A stretch of DNA of 64,000 nucleotides from Fibrobacter sp. (GTDB taxonomy: Bacteria > Fibrobacterota > Chitinivibrionia > Chitinivibrionales > Chitinispirillaceae), in NCBI GenBank assembly GCA_012519985.1, contig JAAYPC010000046.1, positions 17,967 to 81,966 on the forward strand. The letters are read 5' to 3'. The notes below the pieces were generated by a model. The model was not told the DNA's origin. It ran no database searches and saw nothing but the letters and a program-made list of their open reading frames with translations. Positions 9,622 to 56,790 of the stretch are shown here, piece after piece (within the stretch, counting starts at the first letter, position 1; each line of letters opens with the position of its first letter). The position numbers were made by a program, and so were the translations under genes.

Positions 9622-10683
9622 ATGAACACAATGATCAAAAACCCACACGATAAATTCTTCAAGGAGTTTTTTAGCAGAAAAACCATTCTGCGCAGTCTTT
9701 ATACCGAATACCTTGTGCATCTGATCCGTTATCGAATCGATATTGACACGATGGAACTGTTTCAGAACGATTCGGTAAATGAGCAATATGAGGAGCGGCT
9801 TTCCGATCTGGTTTTAATTGTCCAGTTGAAAGATTCCGGGTATCACATTCTGATTCTTCTTGAGCATAAAAGTACCAGAGATCCTGGTGTCGGTAAAAAG
9901 CTTGATGAATATATTCATATTTTAAGACAACGTTATGCAAAGATGCACCCTGAGCATAAGAAAGAGATAAGGGTTATCCCGATAGTGATTTATCATGGAC
10001 TGGATGAACGGGAGATCCCTCAGGACACTGCATCCATATACGACCCGATTGATAACGATTACCGATATATCCAGAACTTTCATTTCGAGGTTTTTAATAT
10101 TTCCACTATTCCGGATCACCAGATAAAAGGGATTCCTCTGTTAAGAATCGGTCTTTATATGTTTAAATACATTCAAAGACCGGAACTTCTAAACAAAATT
10201 GACGACATACTCGAAATCTTTAAAGAGCTGCCTGGTGATCAGATACAGGTTAATCTGGATATGGTGGGAAGATACATAGAAAATGCTGCCCTTCCGAAAA
10301 TACGACACCAGGTAGTCAGAAAAATTATCAACTGGTTTAATCAGGGGGATCGAAAAGTGTCTAAAATATTGGAAATATTGCAAAGACAGGGCATTGAGAA
10401 AGGAATTGAGAAAGGAATTGAGAAAGGAATTGAGAAAGGCAAAAAAATTGGAAAAGAAACGGGCAAATTAGATGTTGCCCAAAGAATGATTTTAAAAGGA
10501 ATGGATACGAAGCTGATTCAGGAAATAACCAGCTTGCCACTGGAAAAATTATCGGAAACAAGAGAAAAAATTGATTCAGCGCGTAATCTTTTTTTACAGA
10601 ATATGGAAATCATGGAGATACAAAAAACGACTGGCTTGTCAATGGAAATCCTCGAAGAGATAAAAAGGTTAAATAATCGATGA
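9622..10683 (+). CDS. Rpn-family recombination-promoting nuclease / YhgA-like putative transposase
   Basis: A PD-(D/E)XK-type protein of the Rpn/YhgA family (PF04754-like), linked in E. coli to RecA-independent recombination. The N-terminal motif NPHDKFFKEFFSRK and the core EERLSDLVLIVQLK followed by ILILLEHKSTRD carry the likely nuclease residues. The ORF track starts at a TTG (9604); the ATG at 9622 or 9631 fits better with family N-termini. The C-terminal third is charged and includes four in-frame GIEK repeats, a hallmark of this family. It stands alone between repeat-bearing intergenic regions, consistent with a mobile-type gene. Confidence 0.85.
   Translation: MNTMIKNPHDKFFKEFFSRKTILRSLYTEYLVHLIRYRIDIDTMELFQNDSVNEQYEERLSDLVLIVQLKDSGYHILILLEHKSTRDPGVGKKLDEYIHILRQRYAKMHPEHKKEIRVIPIVIYHGLDEREIPQDTASIYDPIDNDYRYIQNFHFEVFNISTIPDHQIKGIPLLRIGLYMFKYIQRPELLNKIDDILEIFKELPGDQIQVNLDMVGRYIENAALPKIRHQVVRKIINWFNQGDRKVSKILEILQRQGIEKGIEKGIEKGIEKGKKIGKETGKLDVAQRMILKGMDTKLIQEITSLPLEKLSETREKIDSARNLFLQNMEIMEIQKTTGLSMEILEEIKRLNNR
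10391..10438 (+). repeat. 12-bp tandem repeat inside the Rpn-family gene
   Basis: Four consecutive 12-bp units close to GGAATTGAGAAA (first unit has GGC) encode GIEK-GIEK-GIEK-GIEK. Twelve bases keep the frame, so copy-number change would lengthen or shorten the linker without breaking the protein. Confidence 0.85.
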
Positions 10684-11128: not shown

Positions 11129-12487
11129 ATGGATAAATCAAAGCTTAAAGAACAATCTGAAGTAATTCGGCAGGCATTCGGTTATATCGATCGTTTTAAA
11201 AATGAGCTTTTTGTAATTAAAATCGATGATATCCTCATCTCCAACCCCCTGTTCCCTATCCTTATTAAAGATCTGGTGCTTCTGCATCGCATGGGAATCC
11301 GTATTATTCTGGTTCCAGGCGCAAGAACCAGAATCGATGAGGTCCTTAAAACCTATAATGTCAGTTGCTCCACCATAAATGGTATCCGGATTTCTCCTCC
11401 CGAATCGATTCCTTTCATAAAGATGGCTGCATTTGATGTCTCCAACAATATAATGACCATGCTTGCAGAATGTGAAGCTCATGCAGTGATCGGTAACTGG
11501 GTCCGGGCAAGAAGCATCGGGGTTCGAAATGGAATAAACTACCAAAGCTCCGGCACCGTCGAACGGCTTCAGATCGATATCCTGAATAATGTTCTGGAAG
11601 ACGGCCTTATACCCATTTTTCCCAACATCGGGTGGAGCGGCAAAGGTAAACCTTACAACCTCTCTTCAAATGAATTAGCCCTTACTCTCAGCATCGAACT
11701 TAAAGCCGCAAAACTCTTTTTTGTTACTGATAAGGGTGGGATTCATCAGGGAGAATATAAAATCCCTGATGGAGCGTTTGTCACAGGTGAAGGTATCATC
11801 TCCCAGCTCAACCGGGAACAGGCTCAGGAATTCCTTGATCTCAACTCCTCTGACAGTTATGATGAATCTTTGGAGCTGGTATCTCTGGGGCTGGAGGCCT
11901 GCAATCTCGGTGTAAAACGGGTTCATATCGTCGATGGTCATATCGAAGGGATGATTCTTAAAGAAATATTTTCTAACCGGGGCCTGGGAACCATGATCTA
12001 TGGCAATCAGCATGAAAACATCCGAAAAATGACCCACTCCGATATCCCTGAAGTCCTGCGGATGATGCATCCGGCAGTGGAAGATAAAATCCTGATCCCA
12101 AGAACCGCTTCCGATCTTGAAAAGAAAATCAAGGATTTCATCGTTTATGAGGTAGACGGAACAGTGCACGGTTGTGGAGCATTGCACAAGTACGGACAGC
12201 AGGGTGAAATAGCTGCTATCGTTGTAGATGAGATGTATATCAATGCTGGAATCGGTAAAAAAATCGTTTCCTATTTGATGGAAAAAGCTTTGGCCATGAA
12301 ATTAAAACAGGTTTTTCTCCTTACAACCCAGACATCAGACTGGTTCTCCCAGTTAGGATTCGTTCAAGGAGAAATATCCGATCTTCCCAAAGAAAAACAG
12401 AAAACCTATAACTATGACCGCAACTCTCTGGTATTTTTTTACAAATTTCCGCGTAATAATGGGAACAGATATTTAAGTCAATACTAA
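11129..12487 (+). CDS. argA: Amino-acid N-acetyltransferase (N-acetylglutamate synthase)
   Basis: First step of arginine biosynthesis: acetyl-CoA plus glutamate to N-acetylglutamate. Residues about 20-285 form an amino-acid-kinase-like domain (FVIKIDDIL, IRIILVPGARTRIDEVL, LFFVTDKGGI), and about 300-452 a GNAT acetyltransferase domain (IAAIVVDEMYINAGIGKKIV, LLTTQTSDWFSQLGF). This two-domain layout and the 452-aa length match ArgA of Proteobacteria. The kinase-like domain usually serves arginine feedback rather than catalysis. No other arg genes are nearby, so it is a stand-alone gene. Confidence 0.9.
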   Translation: MDKSKLKEQSEVIRQAFGYIDRFKNELFVIKIDDILISNPLFPILIKDLVLLHRMGIRIILVPGARTRIDEVLKTYNVSCSTINGIRISPPESIPFIKMAAFDVSNNIMTMLAECEAHAVIGNWVRARSIGVRNGINYQSSGTVERLQIDILNNVLEDGLIPIFPNIGWSGKGKPYNLSSNELALTLSIELKAAKLFFVTDKGGIHQGEYKIPDGAFVTGEGIISQLNREQAQEFLDLNSSDSYDESLELVSLGLEACNLGVKRVHIVDGHIEGMILKEIFSNRGLGTMIYGNQHENIRKMTHSDIPEVLRMMHPAVEDKILIPRTASDLEKKIKDFIVYEVDGTVHGCGALHKYGQQGEIAAIVVDEMYINAGIGKKIVSYLMEKALAMKLKQVFLLTTQTSDWFSQLGFVQGEISDLPKEKQKTYNYDRNSLVFFYKFPRNNGNRYLSQY

Positions 12488-24783: not shown

Positions 24784-25186
24784 AGGAGCGGAAGATCGGG
24801 CAGTCGCTGTAATCTTTGTATTGCAGAGGAAAGTCCGGGCACCACAGGACAGGATACTTCGTGCTGAGCGAAGGACCCGTAAGGGTACGGAAAGTGCAAC
24901 AGAGAGAAGACCACTCTTTCTGCAGCTCTAACAAGGGCCTGCAGATGGGGCGAGATGTGAAAAGGTGAGGTAAGAGCTCACCGTCCCGCTGAAGCGGGAG
25001 CAGGTAAACCCTATCCGGTGCAAGACCAAGTAGAGGGGATTTCTGCAGACAACAGCAGAAGGGAATGGTCCGTTCTTTTCCCCAGGGTAGGTCGCTAAAT
25101 GTTCCGCCGCTGGCGGGACCAGATAAATGACTGCCTCTTCCCAAATGGGAAAAGACAGAACCCGGCTTACAGTTCTTCCGTTCCTT
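24784..25186 (+). ncRNA. rnpB: RNase P RNA (type A)
   Basis: Catalytic RNA of RNase P, which trims tRNA 5' ends. Conserved P4 strands are visible: GAGGAAAGTCCGGGC near 24829 and ACAGAACCCGGCTTAC near 25155. GGAGCGGAAGA at 24785 pairs with TCTTCCGTTCC at 25174-25184 to form P1, which sets both ends. GGTAAACCC and the GCGGGAGCAGG loop in between fit the specificity domain. Length about 400 nt fits a type A RNA. A T-rich stretch follows. The ORFs in this stretch (24764-25144, 24928-25209) are shadows. Confidence 0.95.
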
Positions 25187-34395: not shown

Positions 34396-34722
34396 AGTGC
34401 CTCCCCTCTTTTTTTTATGTTGGTCTTATAATATTACGGTTCAGATGAGCGGTTTAAATTGGTAAAAGGGGAAAATAAAGAATATCGAATATCGAATAAC
34501 GAATTTCGAATATCGAAGTGAATGGAACAGTCAGGACATTTTTTTCCTGACCAGTCTGTAGAGACCATATTGTTGGTTTGTAATACTTTTACCAGGGAAG
34601 GATTAAGTAAGACTCAAACAATAACGCCAATGATTTTCACGTCTGGATTAGTCTTTGCGTTTTCAATATCTCAGCGGGTTTTATCAATTACTGAGCTTTA
34701 TTCATTGGACAAGGAAATTTTG
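34396..34722. repeat. Intergenic region with a CGAATATCGAATAACGAAT-type repeat
   Basis: At about 34480-34518 GAATATCGAATATCGAATAA continues as further TCGAAT units with about 9-bp spacing. A related stretch CGAAATTCGAAATTCGAAAT occurs near 61740. The ORF track extends the next gene into this region (start 34522), but that sequence carries no family residues. No other feature seen. Confidence 0.5.
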
Positions 34723-35691
34723 ATGGCAAAGAATCCACACTCCAATAATGATACCCATGGACGACTGGCTAAGACCCCTGAAGAAATACCTAAACGAGGG
34801 TGGTTCGATATCATCAAACGGGTTTTCAGGGAGATCTCTGATGACAATGTCAGCATAATTTCTGCAGGAATGGCTTTTTATGCTTTTTTAGCCATTTTTC
34901 CGGCCATTGCTGCCATTATTTCCATTTATGGTTTGATTGCAGATCCTCAGACCGTCCAACAACATCTCTCTTCAGTTGCTGAAGTACTCCCCAGTCAGGC
35001 ATCTGAACTGATGCGTTCTCAATTGGGGCAGATTGCCAAAGGATCATCCACGGCACTGAGTTGGGGACTGTTATTGAGTGTATTCCTGAGCCTCTGGAGC
35101 GCCAACCGGGGAACCAGTGCGCTTTTTGAAGGTCTCAATGTTGTCTACGATGAAAAAAACACGAGGGGTTTTGTTAAGAGCACCGCTCTCACACTGTTAT
35201 TTACGTTGCTGGGGGTGATAGTAGCTATCATAAGTATTGCGCTGGTGATTGCTTTGCCTGCACTTGCAGAGGGCATAGGAATCTCCGGTGTTTTTATGAC
35301 AACCCTCATGTGGTTAAGGTGGATTCTTCTGGCAGGATTAATCATGCTGAGTCTTGCCGCCCTTTACCGTTTCGCTCCGGACCGTAAAAACCCCAAATGG
35401 CAATGGGTGAGCTGGGGTTCGGTTCTATCAACGATTCTCTGGATCGGCGGCTCCATAGGTTTTTCTTATTATGTGGATAATTTTGGCAATTACAACGCAA
35501 CTTATGGCTCATTGGCAGCAGTTGTAATACTGCTTTTCTGGCTCTATCTTTCCAGTTTTGTCATTCTTTTCGGCGCGGAATTTAATTCCGAAATTGAGCA
35601 TCAGACCAGTGTAGATACCACCACCGGAAAACAGATGCCTATGGGTAAGCGTGGTGCACATCAGGCAGATGATCTGGGCGAGGCGGCATGA
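34723..35691 (+). CDS. YihY/BrkB-family membrane protein
   Basis: Inner-membrane protein of the YihY (RbN-like, formerly RNase BN) family of unknown activity. The family core starts at about residue 35 (IISAGMAFYAFLAIFPAIAAI), with six membrane helices to about residue 290; SLWSANRGTSALFEGLNVVYDE and YGSLAAVVILLFWLYLSSFV are conserved. The start at 34723 has AAGGAAATTTTG upstream and gives 322 aa; the ORF from 34522 adds 67 unrelated residues. Some family members are transport-like, but none is biochemically settled. Confidence 0.88.
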   Translation: MAKNPHSNNDTHGRLAKTPEEIPKRGWFDIIKRVFREISDDNVSIISAGMAFYAFLAIFPAIAAIISIYGLIADPQTVQQHLSSVAEVLPSQASELMRSQLGQIAKGSSTALSWGLLLSVFLSLWSANRGTSALFEGLNVVYDEKNTRGFVKSTALTLLFTLLGVIVAIISIALVIALPALAEGIGISGVFMTTLMWLRWILLAGLIMLSLAALYRFAPDRKNPKWQWVSWGSVLSTILWIGGSIGFSYYVDNFGNYNATYGSLAAVVILLFWLYLSSFVILFGAEFNSEIEHQTSVDTTTGKQMPMGKRGAHQADDLGEAA

Positions 35692-35805
35692 ACGTAGTAA
35701 GCTTATTTGCGAGATTAAGCAGTTTCAATCACAATTGAATATTGATCCAAGATTAAACCCTAAAGCTATTCCTGTTCGCTCACTAAGTTTTTAAATTCAA
35801 AATTA

Positions 35806-36125
35806 AAGGTCTGTAAAGTAACCTGAAAGGTTTAGGGTTTAATTTGAAAGGTTTAGGGTTTAATTTGAAAGGTTTAGGGTTTAATTTGAAAGGTTTAGAG
35901 TTTAATTTGAAAGGTTTAGGGTTAACCCCCAAAGGTTTTAGGGCTTGTCCCCCAAAAGGTTTCCACTTTACCCCCTAAGGTTTTGCGTTAAAGTGGAAAG
36001 GTTTAGGGATTACCCCCTAAGGTTTTTGCGCCAGAATCTTTAAGGTCTGTAAAGTAATCTTAAAGGTCTGTAAAGAAAATTAAAAGGTCTGTAAACTAAC
36101 CCCAAAGCTTTTAAGATACTAGTTC
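35806..36125. repeat. Tandem array of about 15 units with 21-bp period
   Basis: The anchor AAGGT (last unit AAGCT) starts at 35806, 35827, 35848, 35869, 35890, 35911, 35932, 35956, 35977, 35998, 36019, 36042, 36063, 36084 and 36105. Thus 12 of 14 steps are exactly 21 bp. The first half is nearly identical (AAGGTTTAGGGTTTAATTTGA); later units diverge to forms such as AAGGTCTGTAAAGTAATC while keeping the period. It is non-coding and lies upstream of the GH5 gene. It is not a CRISPR because there are no unique spacers. Confidence 0.85.
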
Positions 36126-36398
36126 AAACATTTTGGATGGAGAAAACGGATTTCTTGTATCTGTGTTAGCTTCAATTCTCTTGATTGGGGAAATGAGTGA
36201 TTCTCCAAATAAAGAAACACTTTACCTAAAGAGTAAAATCAATAAAACATCGGTTGGATCAAGAGAATTCAAAGTATATGCGATTATTGACAATTATTTG
36301 GTGTTATTTTATTAATATGTGATGGCAAGTGAAATAACATAAACACTGTGGCACGAATAGATGAAACACTTTACCCATTTTTCTGGAAGGGCGCGGCA

Positions 36399-37754
36399 AT
36401 GAATTCTTCTTACATTTTAAGAAATGTTTTTGTTTTAATCCTCTTTGCTCTCGCTGTTGCCTCGGCGCAGCCTGCCAACACAATCAAATACAATGGCAAA
36501 GACTACTACATTAACGGTATTAATGTCCCCTGGAACGCATTCGGTACCGATGCCGGTACACATTATGAGTGGGGCCCTCTTTATGACCGGGATTTCTTCT
36601 CTACATTTTTTCAGGAATGCAAAGCCTACGGTGTAAACTGTGTCCGCTGGTGGGTCCATTGTGATGGAAGATCAACACCGGAATTTGACGAAAACGGTTT
36701 TGTTACCGGTCTCGATGACAATTTTCTTTCCAATATGGAGGATCTGCTCTCCATTGCCGCAGAGAACAATGTGATGGTTATGCCTTGCCTGTGGTCTTTT
36801 GACATGACGAAGGATTTTACAACTGATGCAGGGAAGTATGCCGGTTTGCATGCCGATCTAATTCAGGACTCGGCTAAGACAAGATCGTACATCAATAATG
36901 CCCTGATCCCCATGGTACAAAAATTTGCCAACACCTGCAACCTTTTTGCCTGGGAGATAATAAATGAACCGGAGTGGAGCATCGATGGTCCGGGGACCAC
37001 TGTGCAGAAGGTCAGCGCTACCGAGATGGCAAGGTTCTGTGCAATGATCGCCGAAGCGATTCATCTTCACTCTGACAAGATGGTGACCGTTGGGTCAGCA
37101 TGTCTCAAATGGCACTCATCGAAACAGCCTCCGGCCGAAACACACTACTGGAGTGACTATTTTCTTCAGGCCGCATACAATAAACCTAAAGCGTACCTGG
37201 ATTTTTATCAGATACACTATTATGACTGGATGTTTAACCCTGACTGGGGATACGATCCTTTCCAGTCCGGGAAAACGGCTGAATACTGGGAGCTTGACAA
37301 GCCAACTATCATAGGAGAATCCCCGGGAATGGAGGGGCAGTATACGGTAGAACAGATGATAAACAATGCTTACGAGAACGGATTCGCCGGTATAATGCCC
37401 TGGTCCTACTTTGCCAATGATGGACACGGAACATGGGACAACTGCAAATCGGCTCTTAAGGCTTTCCGCGATGCACATGCATCGATTGTTGATTTTGAAT
37501 GCACCGGTACCTCTACAATCAAGATCAGGAGCAATTCTGAGGATAAATTTACCTCTGCAGACCTTTTCCGTCCAGGACGATTGAATAACGATTATACAAT
37601 CAAAGTATTTGATACACAAGGAAGGCTTGTAATCAAGGGACAGGCCGGGAAGGCGCTTTCCAGATCACAAATCACTTCACATAAGACTTTAATCTACCAG
37701 GTTACAGGAAGTGGCGGGAACCTTGTCAAAGCAGGAAAGCTCATGATTGAATGA
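36399..37754 (+). CDS. Secreted GH5-type glycoside hydrolase (cellulase/mannanase fold)
   Basis: Likely endo-acting hydrolase on cellulose, mannan or related glucans. After a signal peptide (about 1-26) comes a TIM barrel. VNCVRWWVHCDGR is an early strand, IINEPEW carries the acid/base Glu, and KPTIIGESPG the nucleophile Glu. The C-terminus (VFDTQGRLVIKG, LVKAGKLMIE) is a short sorting-type tail like those on the other hydrolases here. The start at 36399 follows GGAAGGG; the ORF start at 36348 lacks an RBS. It is the only plus-strand enzyme in the island. Confidence 0.85.
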   Translation: MNSSYILRNVFVLILFALAVASAQPANTIKYNGKDYYINGINVPWNAFGTDAGTHYEWGPLYDRDFFSTFFQECKAYGVNCVRWWVHCDGRSTPEFDENGFVTGLDDNFLSNMEDLLSIAAENNVMVMPCLWSFDMTKDFTTDAGKYAGLHADLIQDSAKTRSYINNALIPMVQKFANTCNLFAWEIINEPEWSIDGPGTTVQKVSATEMARFCAMIAEAIHLHSDKMVTVGSACLKWHSSKQPPAETHYWSDYFLQAAYNKPKAYLDFYQIHYYDWMFNPDWGYDPFQSGKTAEYWELDKPTIIGESPGMEGQYTVEQMINNAYENGFAGIMPWSYFANDGHGTWDNCKSALKAFRDAHASIVDFECTGTSTIKIRSNSEDKFTSADLFRPGRLNNDYTIKVFDTQGRLVIKGQAGKALSRSQITSHKTLIYQVTGSGGNLVKAGKLMIE

Positions 37755-37843: not shown

Positions 37844-40573
37844 TTATTGAATAATAAACCTGACCGAGTGTTTTCGTTTCGTCTCTGTGTTCCTGGAACT
37901 TACAATATTAAACACATAAATCCCTCTTGAGAGCGGCATTGTGTTAAGGTCAAAGTTAACCGAATTGATCTCAGTTTTAAAATCCCATTTTCTGACAAGG
38001 CGTCCGGAAACATCAAATAATGATACGCTGGAGAATGCTCCTTCATTATTCAACAATTTCAGGACTGAACCATCTCTGTAAAGCTTTACAGGTCTTGTAT
38101 CATTTCTATCCAATACATTTACAGTGCCGGGCAATGGACGATCGTTTTCTATTCCCTGGGGATTGGACGGATCCAGATCGATTCGCGGCCAGACAAGCTT
38201 GCCGCTTCTCTGTTCATTGACATTATAATCTGCTCCCAGCTCCATCGAGTTCAGATCGAGCCATAGTGTAATGCGCTGGTACTCTTCGGAGCTCAAAGAG
38301 ACATTGTAATGGGAAGGATTCAGATAATTAATCAGTCTGGAAAAAGATGCACCGACTTTTCCCGGAGTAGTTCGTGAACCACCTTTAACCGGTGTAACAA
38401 TATCTCCATTGATATAAGGATTGCCATCTCCACAGAAATAGAAAGCATATTTTTTCAGGCTGCCAAAACTCATATCCGGGCCTTTTCCTCTTTCTCTGTG
38501 GCAAGATGCACATTTTTTATCAAAAACCGGTTTTACTAGTCTGGCAAAGGTAACCGGCTCCACCCCACCCGCATCGGGTTCCAGTTTTGAAGGGGGCCTT
38601 AGATAGGCTAATTTATTGCTTCCTATCTGAACCGCTTCCCATTTGTTTTCATGACATCCAACACACATCATCTGTTCTCCTTCATGAACATAGGTAGCTG
38701 AACGCATTGAATGGACCGCAAGACCTTTATCATCAATCAATTGGAAATATATGCATTTGCCAACAGGAGCTTCACAGTAAACACTGCCATCAGATTCCAC
38801 CGGTACGGTTCCAAGTGACATTCTGGCTAAAGCTTCGGCTGGATATCCGGTCCTTGGCTCGTTTATCAGTCTGGTCTCTTTTGGAAACACCTGAACGATT
38901 CTCATTTTTTTGACTACAGTGTTAGGTGGAAGCGGTATATCTGCTGTATAGACATCATTTACTTTTATTGTTGCACGATAATGATCATCGCTGTTCTTCC
39001 GTTCACCTTGCCAGGTGCCAGTAATAGGTGATGGAGGCTTTTGCCTTTCCTTGACTGGTATAGGATCTATGGGTCTCCAGGTGTTACTTGAATAAATGAG
39101 CTGTTCGCCTCCAAATCTGTCACGCAGAATTACAGTTTTGTTTTTATTACAGATGTAATAATCCTCATTGAGAGGCCATGCTGTTCCATAAGGACCGGTA
39201 GCAAAATCCGGCCAGTCTTTCCATGCAGTAGTGATTCTCTTTACCTGAGAAACTTTCCCGTCATCTTCAATTACAGGATCGATCATGATAAGTTCACCAT
39301 AAGTATAGCTATGATGGCCTGCTGCGGTTGCTATATATTTTTGCGTATTTGGAATCGCACGGATATTGAATTCCGCATTTGGCCTGTCCCATCTTCCATC
39401 TCTCCAGTTAGAGCCGGTAATTGTTTCAAAGGGGTGGGGATAATTTCCATGATATGATCTTGGATCCCTTCCATCGGGGTAACAGGTCCAGAGGTGATGA
39501 GCTATGCAGTCATCACGATCAACATAATCCCATCTGGTGTAAACAATCTTTCCATCATTATCCACGCTTGGATGCCACTCATTAGTTTCATGATAACTGA
39601 GACAGATGATATCGGAACCATCATCTTTCATAGAATGGAGTGTAAAGGTAGGTTTCCCTTTCGTATGACATCGGCCATACCCTCCGCGCCTGTCGGAAAT
39701 AAATGCGATTCGGCCATTGGGGAGCCAGACAGGATCGAAATCATTATGATTTGCGTTTTGAAGGAAATTAAACTCCGATGAAGAGCCTTCGGTAAGTTGA
39801 ACCAGATTGGTCCCGTCAATATTTACTTTAAAGATGTGGTAACATTTGTTATTCGGTGGTGACCATGCAAAAACAATAGTTTTTCCATCATAAGATAGAT
39901 CCGGAGAAAGAAATGCTCCTCCTGTGAGATATGTTCCTTTGAGAGGGCCATTTTCAACCCTGGAATTTTTAAGGACATCAACCAGAACCGGATTGGAAGT
40001 CTTGAACCCTTTCAGGATAAAGAGTCCGCCACCCATGTTAATGTTCCAGGGGTTATATTGATCACACATGTGTACTTCATTATTGGGGAATTCATATCCA
40101 ATAAAGAGAATGTCATCAAAATCAAGCAAAGGGTTGTCCAGAGCGATACGTCTGGCTATTGCACTTAGCTTCATGAACTGATCTCTGTTACCATTATTAT
40201 TTACTGCGGTCTTTGCCAGTGCAGCATTAGCCATTTCTTTTTCCAACTGTTTTATTTCCTGTTCATACCCTTTAAACCTTTCAGATTTATCCAGGTTTTT
40301 TAGATTCTGAAGGAGAAGTTTTGTACGTCGTAATACCACATCTGCAGGAGATCTGTCAGTCGGTAATATCTGTGCATTTATGTCCAGAAGATCATTCTGT
40401 TCAATTGCCTTTTTTGCAAGTCCACTGTTTTTGGTAATTTCCTGCTGCATCTCCAGATACTGCTGTTCCCAGAACGCCTGAATATCAGTTGTATCTGACG
40501 CATAAGCAGCTTTCATGAAAGTGCAAACAGCCAGAATAGCTGCAACACCGGATTTTAATAAATACACTTGCAT
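37844..40573 (-). CDS. Beta-propeller / c-type cytochrome protein of the HZS-alpha-like type, exported
   Basis: A 909-aa exported protein. The signal peptide is MQVYLLKSGVAAILAVCTFMKAAYAS (start at 40573 chosen for it). A helical region of about 130 residues follows, then PD40/WD-like propeller blades (PDLSYDGKTIVFAWSPPNN, FDPVWLPNGRIAFISDRRGG, WHPSVDNDGKIVYTRWDYVD), then two heme-c motifs CVGCH and CASCH. A C-terminal sorting-type tail ends it (SLFDVSGRLVRKWDF). The layout resembles proteins annotated as hydrazine synthase alpha-like in Planctomycetes. Hydrazine synthesis itself is not implied; a redox role next to xylanases is inference. Confidence 0.65.
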   Translation of the reverse strand: MQVYLLKSGVAAILAVCTFMKAAYASDTTDIQAFWEQQYLEMQQEITKNSGLAKKAIEQNDLLDINAQILPTDRSPADVVLRRTKLLLQNLKNLDKSERFKGYEQEIKQLEKEMANAALAKTAVNNNGNRDQFMKLSAIARRIALDNPLLDFDDILFIGYEFPNNEVHMCDQYNPWNINMGGGLFILKGFKTSNPVLVDVLKNSRVENGPLKGTYLTGGAFLSPDLSYDGKTIVFAWSPPNNKCYHIFKVNIDGTNLVQLTEGSSSEFNFLQNANHNDFDPVWLPNGRIAFISDRRGGYGRCHTKGKPTFTLHSMKDDGSDIICLSYHETNEWHPSVDNDGKIVYTRWDYVDRDDCIAHHLWTCYPDGRDPRSYHGNYPHPFETITGSNWRDGRWDRPNAEFNIRAIPNTQKYIATAAGHHSYTYGELIMIDPVIEDDGKVSQVKRITTAWKDWPDFATGPYGTAWPLNEDYYICNKNKTVILRDRFGGEQLIYSSNTWRPIDPIPVKERQKPPSPITGTWQGERKNSDDHYRATIKVNDVYTADIPLPPNTVVKKMRIVQVFPKETRLINEPRTGYPAEALARMSLGTVPVESDGSVYCEAPVGKCIYFQLIDDKGLAVHSMRSATYVHEGEQMMCVGCHENKWEAVQIGSNKLAYLRPPSKLEPDAGGVEPVTFARLVKPVFDKKCASCHRERGKGPDMSFGSLKKYAFYFCGDGNPYINGDIVTPVKGGSRTTPGKVGASFSRLINYLNPSHYNVSLSSEEYQRITLWLDLNSMELGADYNVNEQRSGKLVWPRIDLDPSNPQGIENDRPLPGTVNVLDRNDTRPVKLYRDGSVLKLLNNEGAFSSVSLFDVSGRLVRKWDFKTEINSVNFDLNTMPLSRGIYVFNIVSSRNTETKRKHSVRFIIQ

Positions 40574-40693
40574 TTTTTTATCGCCCCCCGCATTACAAAA
40601 CATTCCAGATATACTCTGGTACATTGCTTTCTGATCCTGATCCGTTTCTTTCAACCTTTTCATCAATCAGGTTTAAATGGATTTATCTTCTTT

Positions 40694-56034: not shown

Positions 56035-56790
56035 CGTATGAATACTTTAGAAGTACCTTTATACGCGCAATTTGGGAGACAAAACACTTTAGAAGTGTCT
56101 TTTCACACGTAATTTGGCAGTTTTTACATTTTAGAGATGTTTTTATACGCGCAATTCGGGAGACCAAACACTTTAAAAGTGCCTTTTCATGTGTAATTCT
56201 ACAGCCTAAACACTTTAAATTGCCGTTTTACGCGTAAACTCGGCAGCCTAAATATTTAACAAGAGCCTTTACACGCGTAATATTGACAGTTTAACCACTT
56301 TAAAATGCCATTATATGCGTAATCCTGGAGACTAAACACCTTAGAAATGCCTTTTCACGAGTAATTCGAGAGACCAAAACAATTTATAAGTACCTTTTCA
56401 CGCGTAATCCGGAAGCCTAAACACTTTAATAGTGGCTTTTCACGCGTAAACACGGTCCCCCAAACACTTTAGAAGTGGCTTTTCATGCGATATTCGAGAG
56501 ACCAGACACTTTAAAAGTGCGGTTTTTCGCAATATTCGGGAGATCAGACACTTTAGAGGTGCGATTTTTCGCATAAAAAATCTGTTCTAAACACTTTGGA
56601 TTGTCAATATTCGCATAAAAACGCTGTTCTAAGTACTTTTGATGGGTCAAGTTTCGCGTGAAAAGGCACCTTTAAACACTTGGGGGTCTCAGCATACGCG
56701 TATAAAGCCACTTCTAAATACTTTGGAATCAAACATACGCGTAAATCGGCTGTTCTAAACACATTAAAGTCCTGATATACGCCGCAGATA
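56035..56790. repeat. Tandem array of about 18 degenerate units with 42-bp period
   Basis: Anchor TTA/TTG of the motif CACTTTAgAAGTG starts at 56047, 56089, 56131, 56173, 56215, 56256, 56300, 56341, 56384, 56426, 56469, 56511, 56553, 56596, 56639, 56680, 56723 and 56764; all steps are 41-44 bp. Units contain the near-palindrome CACTTTAAAAGTG and ACGCGT (about CACTTTAgAAGTGCCTTTTC then ACGCGTAATTCGGGAGACCA). Units 14-18 drift to a different sequence at the same period. No ORF, no spacers. It fills most of the 1190-bp gap between the last GH43 gene and the flagellar lipoprotein gene. Confidence 0.85.

Follow-up and report, generated by a model that had tools for sequence, protein, structure and literature searches.

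A 21-bp tandem array in Fibrobacter sp. is one of at least five scattered copies of an ordered, non-coding repeat

The locus

The window analysed here, a stretch of 64,000 nucleotides from the genome of a Fibrobacter sp. (designated G000), contains a tandem array situated between the genes for a BrkB/YihY-like membrane protein and a mannanase-like protein. The features of this locus, together with a second array elsewhere in the window, are:

34522-35691, plus strand: upstream gene, BrkB/YihY-like membrane protein (PF03631, E 2e-66)
35763-35805, plus strand: two degenerate units extending the array in the 5' direction (AAGCT at 35763, AAGTT at 35785)
35806-36109, plus strand: tandem array of 14 units starting with AAGGT and a 15th anchor
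35827-35910, plus strand: four near-identical AAGGTTTAGGGTTTAATTTGA units
35956-36104, plus strand: part homologous to the ordered block of other copies, with unit types c, d, b, d-like, a, a, a
36348-37754, plus strand: downstream gene; its mannanase-like product is consistent with GH5 (2c0h, mannan endo-1,4-beta-mannosidase, E 1.1e-37)
56044-56562, no strand assigned: second array of the same class, with a 42-bp period and a different sequence, and a degenerate tail to about 56740

The downstream protein has no Pfam match, and the start codon of its gene is likely the ATG at 36399.

An earlier note on this DNA described fifteen AAGGT units in steps of 21 bp with two exceptions, and both the array and its steps are real. 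Fourteen of the anchors read exactly AAGGT (35806, 35827, 35848, 35869, 35890, 35911, 35932, 35956, 35977, 35998, 36019, 36042, 36063 and 36084), whereas the 15th, at 36105, reads AAGCT. The exceptional steps are one of 24 bp, from 35932 to 35956, and one of 23 bp, from 36019 to 36042; every other step is 21 bp. Dinucleotide shuffles would give 0.14 pairs of AAGGT at exactly 21 bp; the whole window has 11, every one of them inside the array. The degenerate 5' units are covered by a match to model R1 (C117:53716-53799, equivalent to 35750-35833 of the window). The array is intergenic, contains unit lengths that are not multiples of three (22, 23 and 24 bp occur), and is non-coding.

Across five arrays, 44 units of 21 bp give a consensus of approximately AAGGTYT-N4-KTTAA-N4-A, with a second conserved core around positions 12-16 in which A15 reaches 1.64 bits. 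What stays constant throughout the array family is AAGST-YT. The second core had escaped the earlier note. The spacers do not vary freely; they fall into a few types, a (CTGTAAAG...), b (AGGGTTTACCCCC), c (CCACTTCACCCCCT) and d (CGTTAAAGTGG), which are found again at further loci and show a superperiod of about 65 bp. The AAGGTTTAGGGTTTAATTTGA units are a local recent expansion within the array.

Homologous copies in the same genome

Pattern and BLAST searches of G000 found homologous arrays on contigs C25, C249, C338 and C351, and the window array is one of at least five copies scattered in this genome. The copies on C25 and C338 align with a score of 369, compared with at most 293 after the order of units is shuffled, and a single 23-bp unit occupies the same slot in both. 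A core block of types b-c-d-a-a can be aligned across all copies, of which the window carries an order variant. Because the succession of unit types is repeated from locus to locus, the G000 arrays are copies of one ordered element. Units are mostly 21-22 bp in all copies, and 69 of the 70 chained anchors in G000 are AAGGT.

Helical phase, spacing and structure

It had been proposed that a period of two helical turns aligns the anchors along a single DNA face. With a pitch of 10.5 bp/turn, those of the window array instead lie at 0 degrees and then, following the two exceptional steps, at 103 and 171 degrees, and in the C351 copy 16 of the 30 units are 22 bp long. A fitted pitch of 10.7-10.8 gives R values of 0.88-0.98 in six of the seven copies, but arrays with permuted unit order are equally coherent, and phase coherence therefore follows from the mean period alone.

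The companion claim, that spacing rather than sequence is kept, lacks support within the array family. Among the six larger arrays the fraction of unit pairs of equal length is 0.73, 0.67, 0.65, 0.46, 0.45 and 0.44, which is near the neutral expectation of 0.44-0.71 at substitution:indel ratios of 7-18, the range on homologous stretches. Because the constancy of unit length approximates neutral, substitution-dominated divergence, the fixed spacing seen here is not, by itself, evidence for selection on spacing; more generally, fixed spacing within one array need not imply such selection.

Curvature, which the earlier note had proposed to check, shows no clear excess under a dinucleotide wedge model: the five arrays of G000 have slightly less of it than shuffles (z -0.9 to -2.0), and two arrays from the relative G008 slightly more (z 0.8, 1.2). 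RNA folding is likewise without excess on either strand (z -0.16, -0.58), no Rfam family is found at the array, and neither promoters nor terminators are enriched there. These RNA and promoter results argue against transcription of the array as a repetitive small RNA acting as a sponge or antisense, for which the 52-nt constant-size satellites of Bacillus coagulans, which are transcribed, offer a precedent (PMC8161180, PMC8625621); this explanation is improbable.

Neighbouring genes

The genes beside the other copies are unrelated to those at the window, and the arrays lie 5' of some genes and 3' of others. The C25 copy adjoins a gene for a 294-aa protein without a Pfam match, the C351 copy an Rpn/YhgA-like gene, and the C338 copy genes other than those at the window, C25, C249 and C351. 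The C249 copy adjoins what, from the translations, we take to be hypA and a pyruvate:ferredoxin oxidoreductase gene. None of the loci of the upstream-gene orthologues in G002, G008, G016, G005, G033 and G027 carries the array, and its site is therefore not conserved; the G027 locus has a weak 21-bp repeat in two copies that differs in sequence.

These observations bear directly on a link to GH5, upstream of which the earlier note placed the array, and on the reading of the array as an operator controlling the downstream mannanase-like gene, with regulators bound along one DNA face. The position of the array, 5' of a co-oriented gene, is what such an operator would have. Its homologues, however, accompany unrelated genes and are in part 3' of them, the orthologous loci lack it, the anchors leave a single face at 10.5 bp/turn, and there is no promoter excess. 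An operator is accordingly very improbable, and the array does not serve to control GH5 locally.

An association with Rpn/YhgA-like nucleases (PF04754) was also considered and rejected. Three such genes are found no more than 3 kb away from 21-bp arrays (C25, C351 and C300), and about three are expected by chance, an estimate obtained from 20 genome matches and approximately 20 arrays per Mb extrapolated from sampled stretches. The window itself contains a PF04754 gene at 9640-10233 (C117:27606-28199).

Relatives and the change of anchor

Among 60 relatives, clear members of the array family were found only in G008, which belongs to another genus of the same taxonomic family; a few of the other genomes gave marginal model scores only. 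The family is thus present in two of 61 genomes, representing two genera. Both G008 arrays, on C37 and C128, share a colinear tail of unit types with the G000 copies, and the b-c-d-a-a block is preserved in the two genera. The earlier note would have taken absence from relatives with loss of the period as refuting its view. The site in relatives indeed lacks the array, but family and period persist elsewhere in another genus.

The anchors of G008 are mostly AAGCT. When the C25, C338 and C351 copies are compared with those of G008, anchors pair as AAGGT/AAGCT six to seven times and as AAGGT/AAGGT one to two times, and the spacers differ by approximately 24-33%. One anchor base has consequently changed in parallel across several unit types between the two genomes, from AAGGT to AAGCT or the reverse. 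Within genomes, anchors diverge less than spacers (0.040 versus 0.103, and 0.062 versus 0.118), a contrast drawn from a small number of changes (2 of 50 and 5 of 80 anchor sites) and biased by locating the anchors through their own sequence. The parallel change could be explained by a factor that reads the anchor, and also by short-tract conversion. Taken with the ordered dispersed block, it suggests that a protein may read the anchor.

Other short-period arrays

Approximately 650 kb of G000 stretches not chosen for arrays, including some contigs picked for chance-level near-matches, contain about 14 further arrays with periods of 21, 42 or 43 bp, mostly of unrelated consensus sequence. Seven of the 12 ORF-free tandem arrays in this sample have one of these periods, an excess with a binomial p of roughly 0.002 under a flat period prior. 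Seven more 21/42-bp arrays overlap open frames; a stop-free 21-bp repeat is open by construction, and such frames are therefore weak evidence for coding. The earlier view that the 21-bp period is special can thus be retained at the level of the genome, with its many unrelated arrays, and not on account of the phasing of this one. Recurrence in unrelated arrays is the stronger evidence that a length of about 21 bp matters, and either a mechanism of birth or a function could explain it.

Among relatives, G005 has several 21/42-bp arrays and G008 a few, and no ORF-free array of 21, 42 or 43 bp was found in smaller samples of G003, G007, G016, G025, G027, G041 and G050. In G005, of another genus, a 21-22-bp array (L214, C12, about 11671-12150) has near-identical AAAGGTTT units grading into strongly diverged ones, which seem to hold the period. 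The second window array has 68% matches, and units of its family occur at C171 (L183) and C279 (L189) of G000. The same genome has AAGCTT-anchored 21-bp arrays with other spacers at C16:19186-19275 and C276:19344-19455.

A broad scan of GTDB genomes with the AAGGT pattern returned at least 119 stretches, the majority of them homogeneous satellites or heptads (mean lag identity 0.90), and the anchor pattern alone is therefore not diagnostic. A few heterogeneous 21-bp stretches, among the matches listed, come from Treponema, Bacteroidetes and Verrucomicrobia MAGs.

Class assignment

A class of constant-size tandem repeats of 20-21 nt was reportedly first described in J Bacteriol in 2020 (doi 10.1128/JB.00229-20). 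These bacterial repeats keep their size while varying in sequence, and are non-coding (Subirana and Messeguer, PMC8161180). They are species-specific, two helical turns long and marked by short characteristic sequences, and their function is unexplained; one repeat family is common to B. simplex and B. muralis, and either a DNA-binding protein polymerising on the repeats or small RNAs have been proposed for constant-size repeats (PMC8161180).

The class comprises non-coding arrays of at least four repeats, at least 60% of them of the same length (+/-1), with a period of 20-23 nt. Twelve of the 14 units in the window array are 21 bp, the sampled stretches of the genome contain several families that agree in size and differ in sequence, and the family of the window has a short characteristic sequence, AAGGTYT at the unit start with A15. 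The likeness thus extends to non-coding character, period, multiple families per genome, a short shared sequence and a length of two turns. Unlike the published class, units within one array are here strongly unlike one another and yet stand in the same order at several loci, one family spans two genera with a changed anchor, and periods of 42-43 bp are also common. On balance, the window array is probably a copy of a dispersed non-coding satellite of this class, a reading in which the mechanism discussed below is included as inferred.

Other known repeats resemble it in part. The 52-nt Bacillus repeats share constant length, variable sequence and short common motifs, but differ in period and are known from Firmicutes (PMC8161180). 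The satellites of Leptospira interrogans and Methanocella conradii are also non-coding families copied around a prokaryote genome, but measure 37-69 nt in the family table and are not described as constant-size (PMC6749651). Two further candidates were rejected: a CRISPR array, which would have a constant repeat longer than 20 bp and unique spacers, as the constant part is only 5-7 bp and different loci have spacer types in common; and a helically phased operator array, as the anchors are not on one face at 10.5 bp/turn and the array is not conserved upstream of the same gene.

Plasmid iterons, like the array, consist of direct repeats that are spaced by about two helical turns and share a conserved core. 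An origin or partition array of this kind, derived from a plasmid or phage since integrated, is nevertheless scarcely credible, given that five copies are scattered over the genome, that no replication gene was noticed in the neighbouring frames examined or the six proteins scanned, and that there was no match in 72,556 plasmids or 50,697 phages or, for one unit pattern, in viral contigs.

Proposed mechanism

Under the satellite reading, arrays would gain and lose entire units by recombination or slippage, and copies would reach other intergenic sites. A DNA-binding protein may contact the short anchor at intervals of about two helical turns, so keeping the anchor while the rest of the unit drifts; its role would probably lie in chromosome architecture. 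This chain of whole-unit growth, copying and anchor-keeping is tentative, and we regard it as possible rather than probable. A stronger version, in which a trans-acting protein recognises AAGST every two helical turns and evolves together with the arrays as part of a satellite-based chromosome-organising system, is rather unlikely; under it, the anchors of many unit types would have switched jointly between AAGGT and AAGCT in the two genera, with unit order and period retained. Different array families have different short motifs, and a single AAGST reader would therefore not explain all arrays.

The satellite may instead have no function and no reader, having been born at about 21 bp through a length-measuring replication or repair event and shaped thereafter by drift, gain and loss of units, and occasional copying. 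Unit lengths that fit neutral divergence, a site that is not conserved, the want of a consistent gene neighbour and of excess RNA structure or excess curvature, and phase coherence no greater than that of shuffled order all agree with this account. Its difficulties are the parallel anchor change and lower anchor divergence, which would be unexpected without conversion or selection, and the recurrence of 21, 42 and 43 bp in unrelated arrays, which needs a special mechanism of birth. We consider it not far short of an even call.

What is new here is the ordered dispersed block and the anchor change parallel across unit types. We have not found either of the following described for the 20-21 nt class: homologous ordered arrays at several loci in two genera, which make substitution, indel and anchor change measurable, and the anchor switch, which is what an anchor-reading protein would predict.

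Other features of the window

GAATATC heptad arrays, their 7 bp being a third of 21 bp, are situated at 34480-34517 of the window and at 7555-7585 of L022. The minus strand at 37844-40666 encodes a large protein of secreted type that combines PD40 repeats with a segment resembling the hydrazine synthase alpha middle domain (PF18582) and matches Por_Secre_tail weakly. A bacterial RNase P class A RNA (RF00010) occupies 24788-25185.
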